Assembly: GCA_017465825.1 (NCBI GenBank)
Contig: JAFTVI010000035.1
Span: 186,001-250,000, forward strand
Direction of reading: 5' to 3'
DNA length: 64,000 bases
From: Clostridia bacterium
GTDB taxonomy: Bacteria > Bacillota > Clostridia > Oscillospirales > Acutalibacteraceae
This document shows positions 9,631-11,494 of this stretch, piece after piece. The translations under genes and the position numbers were made by a program. Position 1 is the first letter of the stretch. The number at the start of each line of letters is the position of its first letter. A model generated the notes under the pieces. It had not been told where the DNA came from. It was given only the letters and a program-made list of their open reading frames with translations, and did no database searches.

Positions 9631-10857
9631 TTGGACTATATTACGCGCGAACTTGAAAGAAAGTTTATAAAAATGAATGGCTTTTTTAAGGCTATCCTTG
9701 TAACGGGAGCAAGACAAGTCGGCAAAACCACAATGCTGAAACATTTAGCAGCAGGTACTGACAGAACTTATGTCACACTTGATAATGCTGTTGCGAGAGA
9801 TTTGGCAAAACGGGATCCCGTATTGTTTTTTCAAACCTATAAACCGCCGATTTTGATAGATGAGGTTCAGAAAGCACCTGAACTTTTTGAGCAAATAAAA
9901 ATTATGTGCGATGAAAGCGAAGAAAAGGGTTTATTTTGGCTTACCGGTTCACAACAGTACAAAATGATGAAAAAAATTAAGGATACTCTTGCCGGAAGAT
10001 TGTGCATATTGGAATTATATAGCCTTTCTCAAAGAGAAAAAAATAAAATAATTTTTGATACGGAACTTGATTTTTCACTTGAAACCTTGCAAAATCGTCA
10101 AAGACAAGTTCCAAAAAATGATGTTATTTCAGTTTTTAATCATATTTGGGAGGGTGGTATGCCGCAAGTATGGGGTGTTGATGATGAATTACGCTCCGAG
10201 TATTTTAACTCTTACGTTGAAACCTATCTTATGAGGGATGTAGCCGAGGAAGGCGGAATCACAGATATGGTTCGGTTCAGGAAATTTCTCAATGCTTGTG
10301 CTGCCCTTGTGTCTGAACAGGTAAATTTCGCCAATTTGGCAGAAGCGGCGGATATATCACAGCCAACGGCAAAAAATTGGTTAAAGATTTTGCAGGGGTT
10401 AGGCATAATATATCTGCTTGAGCCTTATTCAAATAATGCTTTGCAACGCTTGACTAAAACACCTAAATTATATTTTTGCGATACAGGGCTGTGTGCATAT
10501 CTTTCTATGTGGCTTACTCCGGCAACTCTTATGCACGGAGCAGCAAGCGGTCATTTTTACGAGAACTATGTTGTAATGGAGCTTGTTAAAAATTATTCTT
10601 ATGGAAAAGTGAAATCCAATATAACCTATTACCGTGATTCAAATGCAAAGGAAATAGATGTGTTTGTTGAAGAAAACAGTATTATTCATCCTCTTGAAAT
10701 AAAGAAATCTTCCAATCCAAATAACAGAGAGATAAAAAAGTATTCTGTTATTGACAAGGCAAGTTTAAACAGGGGTAACGGCGGTATTATTTGTATGTGT
10801 GAAGAACCCGTACCGATAGATAATGATAACTGCTTAATACCAAGTAATTTAATTTAA
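9631..10857 (+). CDS. AAA-family ATPase with DUF4143 domain
   Basis: The 408-residue protein starts at TTG 9631 with GGGGTG upstream; the first residues DYITRELERKF match the usual N-terminus of this family, which favours TTG over ATG 9673. The Walker A motif is GARQVGKTT (about residues 26-34), the Walker B region is PPILIDEVQ (about 73-81) and a sensor-like LTGSQQ follows, all as in the AAA_14 domain. The C-terminal half (YVETYLMRDV, ANLAEAADISQPTAKNWLKIL, then LEIKKSSNP) matches DUF4143, which has a winged-helix part and a PD-(D/E)XK-like end. Such proteins are common in Clostridia, often near mobile regions, and their function is not established. Confidence 0.85.
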   Translation: MDYITRELERKFIKMNGFFKAILVTGARQVGKTTMLKHLAAGTDRTYVTLDNAVARDLAKRDPVLFFQTYKPPILIDEVQKAPELFEQIKIMCDESEEKGLFWLTGSQQYKMMKKIKDTLAGRLCILELYSLSQREKNKIIFDTELDFSLETLQNRQRQVPKNDVISVFNHIWEGGMPQVWGVDDELRSEYFNSYVETYLMRDVAEEGGITDMVRFRKFLNACAALVSEQVNFANLAEAADISQPTAKNWLKILQGLGIIYLLEPYSNNALQRLTKTPKLYFCDTGLCAYLSMWLTPATLMHGAASGHFYENYVVMELVKNYSYGKVKSNITYYRDSNAKEIDVFVEENSIIHPLEIKKSSNPNNREIKKYSVIDKASLNRGNGGIICMCEEPVPIDNDNCLIPSNLI

Positions 10858-10867
10858 TGCGTTTTTT

Positions 10868-10901
10868 AATCGCTGTCCATACGGATGGCGATTCTCTTTT
10901 T
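10868..10901 (+). terminator. Probable terminator of the ATPase gene
   Basis: AATCG pairs with CGATT and CCAT with ATGG around an ACGG loop, with a four-base bulge (CTGT), followed by a T-rich run (TCTCTTTTTC). It begins 11 bases after the ATPase stop. The bulge lowers confidence. Confidence 0.5.
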
Positions 10902-10910
10902 CAATTTATG

Positions 10911-10969
10911 TCTGGCGACAGAAGGAGCGATGTATTTTTCGATGCGTGGCTTCGGCTGCGCATTTTTTT
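10911..10969 (+). repeat. 59-bp direct repeat, copy 1, ending in a UUCG terminator hairpin
   Basis: This stretch is repeated at 11143-11201 with two substitutions. Its 3' half folds as TGCGTGGC-TTCG-GCTGCGCA followed by seven T. The A-to-G difference in the stem keeps pairing as G-U, so the hairpin is preserved in both copies. It may be the remnant 3' end of a second copy of the RNA element that follows. Confidence 0.8.
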
Positions 10970-10996: not shown

Positions 10997-11025
10997 TTGC
11001 AACATAATAATAAATGTGGTATACT
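10997..11025 (+). promoter_or_regulatory. Promoter of the candidate noncoding RNA
   Basis: TTGCAA (10997-11002) and TATACT (11020-11025) are separated by 17 bases. The predicted transcription start, six to seven bases after the -10, falls on G11032, the first base of the closing helix of the structured element. Confidence 0.65.
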
Positions 11026-11031
11026 AACTGT

Positions 11032-11203
11032 GCCAGATAAAATCTTAATTTATTTTTTACACCATAGTATTTGTATTTTTATTTCGGTAAAAATACAGAT
11101 GCTCTTATTTGCATATACTGTGGTGTTATGTTAAAGATTTTGTCTGGCGACAGAAGGAGCAATGTATTTTTCGATGCGTAGCTTCGGCTGCGCATTTTTT
11201 GTT
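11032..11203 (+). ncRNA. Candidate structured noncoding RNA or leader, about 170 nt
   Basis: Three nested helices can be drawn by eye. The closing helix pairs 11032-11046 with 11134-11148 (15 bp, one U-G). A second helix pairs 11059-11070 with 11115-11126 (12 bp, one wobble). The inner hairpin pairs 11072-11082 with 11087-11097 around UUCG. A single-stranded stretch (about 11149-11173) follows, then a terminator hairpin (11174-11195, UUCG loop) with six T. Promoter, closing helix and terminator are in register. A 90-residue gene starts 18 bases after the T run, so the element could be a free RNA or a cis-acting attenuator. I cannot match it to a known RNA family; 6S RNA and a T-box were considered and do not fit. 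Confidence 0.6.
11143..11201 (+). repeat. 59-bp direct repeat, copy 2 (3' end of the candidate RNA)
   Basis: Identical to 10911-10969 except for two substitutions and one T fewer in the terminal run. It includes the 3' strand of the closing helix and the terminator of the candidate RNA. Confidence 0.8.
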
Positions 11204-11221
11204 TTTGGAGGAAGAAATAAA

Positions 11222-11494
11222 ATGAATGAAATATCAGAGAAATATATTCTGGACGCGTTGGAAGAATATGAATTAAACCTTATTCACAGTAAATATGAAT
11301 TCAATGATAGAAATACATATGCTGCAGATTTTCTTTTAAGTGAAATGAAGTACAGAGAAACGCTGGATGAAAAACAAACCGAAGAATTCAAGGAATATAG
11401 GCATTATGTTTTAAGATATATCTCGGCAGTGAAAAAGGAATATTTCGCTGCAGGAGTTTTGCACGGAATCAATATTGAGAATCACCCACGTTAA
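11222..11494 (+). CDS. Small hypothetical helical protein
   Basis: This 90-residue product starts at ATG 11222 with GGAGGAAG seven bases upstream. An earlier in-frame start at 11162 lies inside the terminator hairpin of the preceding RNA element and was rejected. The sequence is charged and helical, with a C-terminal stretch YFAAGVLHGINI that resembles the FxxGxxLG end of small Clostridial proteins of the DUF6809 type, but the match is weak. No signal peptide or membrane segment is visible. Its position right after a terminator suggests expression depends on read-through or on attenuation by the RNA element. Confidence 0.6.
   Translation: MNEISEKYILDALEEYELNLIHSKYEFNDRNTYAADFLLSEMKYRETLDEKQTEEFKEYRHYVLRYISAVKKEYFAAGVLHGINIENHPR

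Follow-up and report, generated by a model that had tools for sequence, protein, structure and literature searches.

Does the structured RNA predicted in front of a small gene at this locus act in cis, as an attenuator of that gene, or is it a free-standing transcript? The window, i.e., the whole stretch of DNA analyzed, comprises 64,000 nt from Clostridia bacterium (GCA_017465825.1, contig JAFTVI010000035.1, positions 186,001–250,000 of the forward strand). An earlier note on this DNA had left the choice between a free ncRNA and a cis attenuator; the comparative analysis favors the latter, because a gene with a Shine–Dalgarno sequence follows most copies within 45 nt and because the terminator and antiterminator strands co-evolve. 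We assign a probability of about 0.78 to the reading of the RNA as a cis-acting transcription attenuator of riboswitch-like build, belonging to a family without a match in Rfam 15. The parts of the locus, in window coordinates, are as follows.

10906–10968, + strand: truncated second copy (B, C, and D), without a recognized promoter, P1 5′ arm, or A
10997–11025, + strand: promoter, consisting of TTGCAA (10997–11002), a 17-nt spacer, and the TG-extended −10 element TATACT (11020–11025); basis, spacing in homologues
11032, + strand: predicted +1, the first base of P1; basis, promoter conservation
11032–11046, + strand: 5′ arm of the closing helix P1 (15 bp); basis, fold and within-genome co-variation
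11059–11070, + strand: 5′ arm of P2 (12 bp); basis, fold and co-variation
11072–11081, + strand: A′, the 5′ arm of the apical hairpin P3; basis, fold and co-variation
11088–11106, + strand: A, i.e., the P3 3′ arm (11088–11097) and the adjoining GAUGCUCUU (11098–11106); basis, co-variation
11115–11126, + strand: 3′ arm of P2; basis, fold
11134–11148, + strand: 3′ arm of P1; basis, fold
11154–11172, + strand: B, the putative switch strand AAGGAGCAAUGUAUUUUUC, with A or C as the partner; basis, co-variation
11173–11185, + strand: C, the terminator 5′ arm and loop, with B (antiterminator) or D (terminator) as the partner; basis, co-variation and folds
11187–11201, + strand: D, the terminator 3′ arm and T run; basis, fold and co-variation
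11207–11213, + strand: Shine–Dalgarno sequence GGAGGAA of the downstream gene
11222–11494, + strand: gene for a 90-aa protein without a Pfam match

Minimum-free-energy folding, which the earlier note had named as a check, yields −66.1 kcal/mol for the 172-nt RNA (11032–11203), far below its dinucleotide shuffles (−32.4 kcal/mol, sd 3.7; z −9.05), none of 200 being as good. The elements named there are all recovered: the promoter TTGCAA-17-TATACT is present, with TG before the −10 element; the 15-bp closing helix, the 12-bp helix, the UUCG-capped inner hairpin, and the terminator (hairpin at 11173–11196, then a T run) all belong to the minimum-energy fold; and the 90-residue gene is read from the ATG at 11222 behind GGAGGAA. 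A mechanical list of open reading frames contains a longer, in-frame ORF of 110 aa from 11162, the additional start of which is not conserved among homologues. New relative to the earlier note are the long-range A:B pairing, the B:C antiterminator, and the truncated copy, which lies directly upstream of the full one, is 95% identical to it, has its own terminator hairpin, and is probably a decayed tandem unit. Further upstream, a 408-aa ORF (9631–10857), which by eye resembles an ATPase, is followed by a separate terminator-like hairpin (10868–10893) that may limit read-in from that side.

Taken alone, the promoter of the window is unremarkable, as the region contains seven promoter-like sites versus 6.5 expected. 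The promoter and a start at 11032 become convincing because homologues keep the spacing: of the 98 usable copies, i.e., those in which P1 has a clear motif and the sequence reaches far enough upstream, 83 have the −10 element exactly 12 bases ahead of the point where the closing helix begins. The promoter lies outside the search model; the P1 start was defined by motif and pairing, an automatic definition by pairing only being too noisy. Position frequencies across the copies show TTG at −35 to −33, TG at −15/−14, TATAAT, and G or A at +1. Given the fixed −12 position, transcription is predicted to begin with the first nucleotide of P1, in agreement with the start proposed earlier. An AAUA motif at +10 to +24, around the P1/P2 junction, is seen in 74 of 111 copies; after shuffling it is seen in 28 of 111, the highest of 500 shuffles giving 41.

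Homologues, which the earlier note had suggested seeking by a covariance search in related genomes, are numerous, and their helices co-vary. A DNA search reveals one more full copy (83%) in the same genome, along with two partial ones, and relatives in 10 of 59 other genomes. The covariance model R1, built from 12 sequences and containing the terminator, has 14 matches in the genome of the window, one of them the truncated remnant ending at 10968. R1 also finds the RNA in 52 of the 150 genomes sampled from the family (at E ≤ 1e-3), in 69 of 197 from the order (at E ≤ 1e-5), and in 50 of 196 from the class; these counts, like that for the phylum, include the genome itself and come from partly overlapping samples. 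In the phylum-wide sample, R1 matches one genome of 199, the genome of the window, hence it gives few false matches. An exact core pattern occurs in at least 117 stretches of named genome records; among the 80 titles listed, nearly all are MAGs, many of them from ruminant guts, under the names Oscillospiraceae, Ruminococcaceae, Ruminococcus, Ruminiclostridium, Eubacterium, Clostridia, Clostridiales, and Bacillota. The anatomy was studied on 133 distinct copies, fewer than all R1 matches in the family; 114 new copies from the core-pattern scan bring the set to 247.

Neither in the window nor in 32 loci does any Rfam 15 family match the RNA at the gathering threshold. Below it, the matches around the RNA are chance-like (E from 0.15 to 3.4), and elsewhere in those loci Rfam recognizes four other elements, namely a 5S rRNA, a tRNA, a SAM riboswitch, and an L10 leader; a known RNA family was therefore rejected. 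Among the papers listed in literature searches, none is recognizable as describing this RNA by its title and the start of its abstract, and the main texts of three structured-RNA surveys (PMC11109978, PMC8632094, and PMC8040213) do not contain Ruminococcus, Faecalibacterium, or Oscillospira, an unnamed entry in a supplement being possible. Since the viral contigs have no match to the exact core pattern and the plasmid collection has none to the window copy, spread by phages or plasmids was rejected as well. One sequence labeled Bacteriophage sp., from human feces (L255, MT835845.1:113-4235), carries a full copy (131 bits) before a lipoprotein-like ORF; its phage label is doubtful, since by eye the ORFs around the copy seem to be chromosomal. 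The helix arms and the 63-nt direct repeat could also be read as a transposon or MITE; this was rejected because the copies share the internal structure and the promoter, the repeat being a truncated copy of the RNA.

Copies are also found in tandem. One locus (L066:1867-3227, G181:C60) has four units 265–267 nt apart, each with the −10 element at the usual place, followed by a PIN-domain gene. In a two-unit array (L069:1992-2420, G154:C246), a Shine–Dalgarno sequence comes after the first unit, together with a brief copy of the gene start that soon runs into a stop; hence arrays seem to grow by duplication of the promoter, the leader, and the gene start.

The competing pairings emerge from the alignments. 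RNAalifold, applied to 18 sequences, picked the long-range A:B pairing unasked, instead of the closing helix; here, A combines the P3 3′ arm with the neighboring GCUCU, and B is the strand following the closing helix. In all 18 sequences, the segment from B to the terminator loop forms a B:C hairpin, the weakest at −7.1 kcal/mol. When partners are exchanged between copies, A:B drops in strength from −16.1 to −12.7 kcal/mol (z −14.8, n = 127) and B:C from −12.6 to −10.1 kcal/mol (z −11.4, n = 126); A:B is below −10 kcal/mol in 121 of the 127 copies.

As shared ancestry had to be excluded, we also swapped partners only inside genomes (105 copies, 29 genomes, 5000 permutations). The cognate duplex is stronger than the swapped one for B:C (−12.43 versus −11.15, z −6.4), A:B (−16.00 versus −14.09, z −7.4), and C:D (−15.67 versus −13.02, z −8.8), with 0 of 5000 permutations as good in each case, while the control pairs A:C (z −0.7), B:D (z −0.9), and A:D (z −0.4) show no effect in the same test. 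For the local helices, the within-genome swap gives z −10.5 for P1, −11.5 for P2, and −6.3 for P3 (84 copies, 23 genomes). Pair counts show the same for A:B and C:D: in an alignment of 94 copies fitted to that structure, 97.1% of the cells are paired, and 187 cells are changed on both sides, versus 47 when shuffled. For B:C on the CM alignment, the paired cells, the both-side changes, and the covariation score exceed all 500 shuffles, while the number of pairs with a double change (250/500) and of pair types (306/500) is not above the shuffles. In one genome (G001), the terminator arm and loop have a different sequence, and B is altered to match.

Thus, co-variation demonstrates six predicted pairings, P1, P2, P3, A:B, B:C, and C:D, the last two being mutually exclusive and both under selection, with the B:C counts on the CM alignment agreeing in part. 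The earlier note had set beforehand that homologues lacking compensatory changes would count against the RNA; such changes occur in six helices of six, for B:C partly so in the pair counts.

Energies and folds add to this picture. On average, C:D is stronger than B:C by 3.3 kcal/mol (sd 3.2). The transcript of the window copy up to position 11186 folds with the B:C hairpin, and the full-length one with C:D (nested folding). The B:C hairpin is formed by 111 of 111 truncated transcripts and also by 259 of 333 with B shuffled, hence the former count alone means little; in nested folds of full transcripts, C:D is present in only 51 of 111 copies. A and B are separated by P1 and P2, so the A:B pairing requires a bend or melting. 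The lengths of P1 and P2 are weakly matched (rho 0.30, p 0.045, n = 46 of 110 folds), and length matching as a proof of fold-back was set aside. An apical hairpin other than P3 is seen in L012 (folded) and L004 (by eye). The automatic finder places a terminator in 129 of the 133 copies, L018 and L022 being mis-called among these. In one genome (G031), three copies are broken in the terminator (L010:1-55, L018:1-55, and the end of L073, on contigs C9, C3, and C8) and continue into nearly the same sequence of about 43 nt, near a contig end, as if it were one repeated inserted element.

An ORF of at least 40 codons with a Shine–Dalgarno tetramer starts at most 45 nt after the match in 170 of 247 copies, versus 126 of 1398 random places under the same rule; on the divergent side, the rule is satisfied in 6 of 128 cases, versus 81 of 128 on the downstream side. 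No ORF is found within 130 nt in 32 of 247 copies, and 102 of the 213 distinct downstream ORFs begin 15–26 nt after the match. Comparison of the copies thus shows a predicted promoter at a fixed place and a position before genes, and the arrangement expected of an attenuator, a promoter upstream and a terminator before a gene on the same strand, is found.

The encoded proteins are diverse. Pfam assigns 77 families to 142 of the 213 distinct downstream proteins; among the best 25 of these families, LRR_5 (BspA type) is the most common (29 of the 142 proteins), followed by dockerin (6), double zinc ribbon (5), lectin (3), CHAP (3), S-layer (2), and subtilase (2), and no common pathway or function is seen. 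A simple hydrophobicity rule, not a trained predictor, calls a signal-peptide-like N terminus in 90 of 168 downstream proteins versus 109 of 522 other ORFs at these loci, the two sets having different length limits. PADLOC matches on the 142 proteins are scattered, with at most two members per family, and a defense role was rejected. The 90-aa protein of the window has 19–30% identity to small proteins encoded after other copies; these give weak DUF6809 matches that do not reach the cut-off. Such small proteins recur behind the RNA at six loci of genome G000 (the window, L055, L056, L059, L064, and L065) and at L012 and L071 in other genomes, several of them with the weak DUF6809 match, and may be linked to its function. 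No class of genes points to a ligand, which makes a pathway metabolite seem a less likely trigger than a global signal or a protein partner.

In the mechanism that we propose, RNA polymerase would begin at the first base of P1, and P1, P2, and P3 (A′:A) would fold first. If B is free, it would pair with the emerging C to form the antiterminator, so that C:D is blocked and the gene is transcribed. Alternatively, B would invade A from the GCUCU beside P3, displacing A′, and the resulting A:B pseudoknot would occupy B; with B tied up, C would be free for D, and transcription would stop just before the gene. A′:A, A:B, B:C, and C:D would then form a chain in which neighboring pairings exclude each other, and the P1–P2–P3 domain, with the AAUA-containing P1/P2 junction, would be the likely sensor that biases the choice of B. 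The switching itself, the order of events, the direction (A:B as the off state), and a small-molecule or protein signal are what we infer here.

The main competitor of the cis attenuator is a free-standing small RNA acting in trans, with an incidental gene position and a terminator that just ends the transcript. Among the matches listed, there are seven groups of neighboring copies, two of which include a truncated copy; the full units in five arrays carry their own promoter-like and terminator sequences, and a cis switch with a promoter of its own gains little from a further unit in tandem, which leaves room for a trans role of a short RNA. This reading is nevertheless unlikely, given that 170 of 247 copies are followed closely by a ribosome-binding site and an ORF, that B:C co-evolution has no obvious purpose in a plain small RNA, and that the helices are so variable that inspection by eye reveals no conserved stretch for target binding. 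The multiplicity of the copies, the tandem units, and the remnant at 10906–10968 might instead reflect a mobile or duplicating promoter–terminator cassette, or a chance structure, without regulation. We consider this very improbable: six helices co-vary in a copy-specific manner within genomes, which needs selection on the structure, and neither the plasmid collection, searched with the window copy, nor the viral contigs, searched with the exact core pattern, gave a match.

Two more specific readings have still less in their favor. If the RNA were the antitoxin of a type III-like toxin–antitoxin pair, the downstream gene would encode the toxin; the order of parts (promoter, pseudoknotted RNA that is sometimes in tandem, terminator, and gene) is the same, and one four-unit array precedes a PIN-domain gene, the only such gene among 10 downstream proteins scanned singly. 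However, the downstream genes are mutually unrelated, with LRR, dockerin, and zinc-ribbon proteins the most common; the best 25 of 77 downstream families include no ToxN/CptN/TenpN-type endoribonuclease; the RNA has no Rfam match; and the units of about 165 nt are not short repeats, all of which makes an antitoxin scarcely credible. Nor does a peptide-coding, ribosome-dependent attenuator seem at all probable. A closed ORF of at least eight codons is present in 97 of 111 leaders, 15 of the 111 have a Shine–Dalgarno-like tetramer before one, and in the window the ATG within B is in frame with the gene; but 96 of the 111 lack such an ORF with a Shine–Dalgarno sequence, and an AUG follows the GGAG of B in 22 of 63 copies, with 5 of the 22 open in frame into the gene, which is near chance. 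No short leader ORF is conserved among the 111 leaders, and a leader peptide or an in-frame start inside B was accordingly rejected.

The cis attenuator thus remains the preferred reading, and what is new in it is the co-evolving three-way switch, its spread through the class, and its multi-copy use. A bolder version, which we put forward tentatively and hold to be somewhat less probable than its opposite, is that the RNA represents an orphan riboswitch-like class of gut Clostridia, with as many as 14 matches in a 2-Mb genome, and globally switches secreted and accessory proteins in response to a common signal, a second messenger or a protein, read through a toehold-invasion pseudoknot. With matches in 50 of 196 genomes sampled from a class in which gut bacteria abound, the RNA would open a regulon of largely uncharacterized, often secreted-looking proteins, and whatever ligand or protein it responds to could represent a signal new to these bacteria. 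The proposed layered design, with a pseudoknot that acts through strand invasion as an anti-antiterminator and a predicted start on the first base of a helix, offers a test case for co-transcriptional folding.

Several known systems share parts of this design. Type III toxin–antitoxin RNAs (ToxI and relatives) combine a promoter, a pseudoknotted RNA, a terminator, and a gene in the same order, but differ from the RNA family described here in the unit length and the downstream genes. The c-di-GMP riboswitches occur in several copies per genome, some before genes for surface or secreted proteins, and one class has a pseudoknot; the multi-copy use, the surface and secreted genes, and the pseudoknot are alike, although the RNA in the window and the 32 loci match no Rfam family at the gathering threshold. 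In trp-type attenuators, a chain of overlapping strands is formed, each pairing with the preceding or the following one; such a chain is common to both, while our family lacks a conserved leader peptide and has five strands (A′, A, B, C, and D). The general kind is that of the transcription-terminating riboswitches, in which a 5′ leader has a sensor domain, exchanges an antiterminator for a terminator, and ends with the terminator just before the gene. The RNA would work like them, and shares with them and with orphan candidates the leader, a sensor-like domain, the strand exchange, and the terminator position; it would be a member of the class only with a ligand, and a shared downstream pathway naming the ligand, usual for riboswitches though not obligatory, is not seen among the best 25 of 77 families. 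Unlike riboswitches, this family precedes unrelated genes and has no Rfam match, its promoter is locked to the first base of the structure, and its proposed off state would be a long pseudoknot that unzips the apical hairpin.
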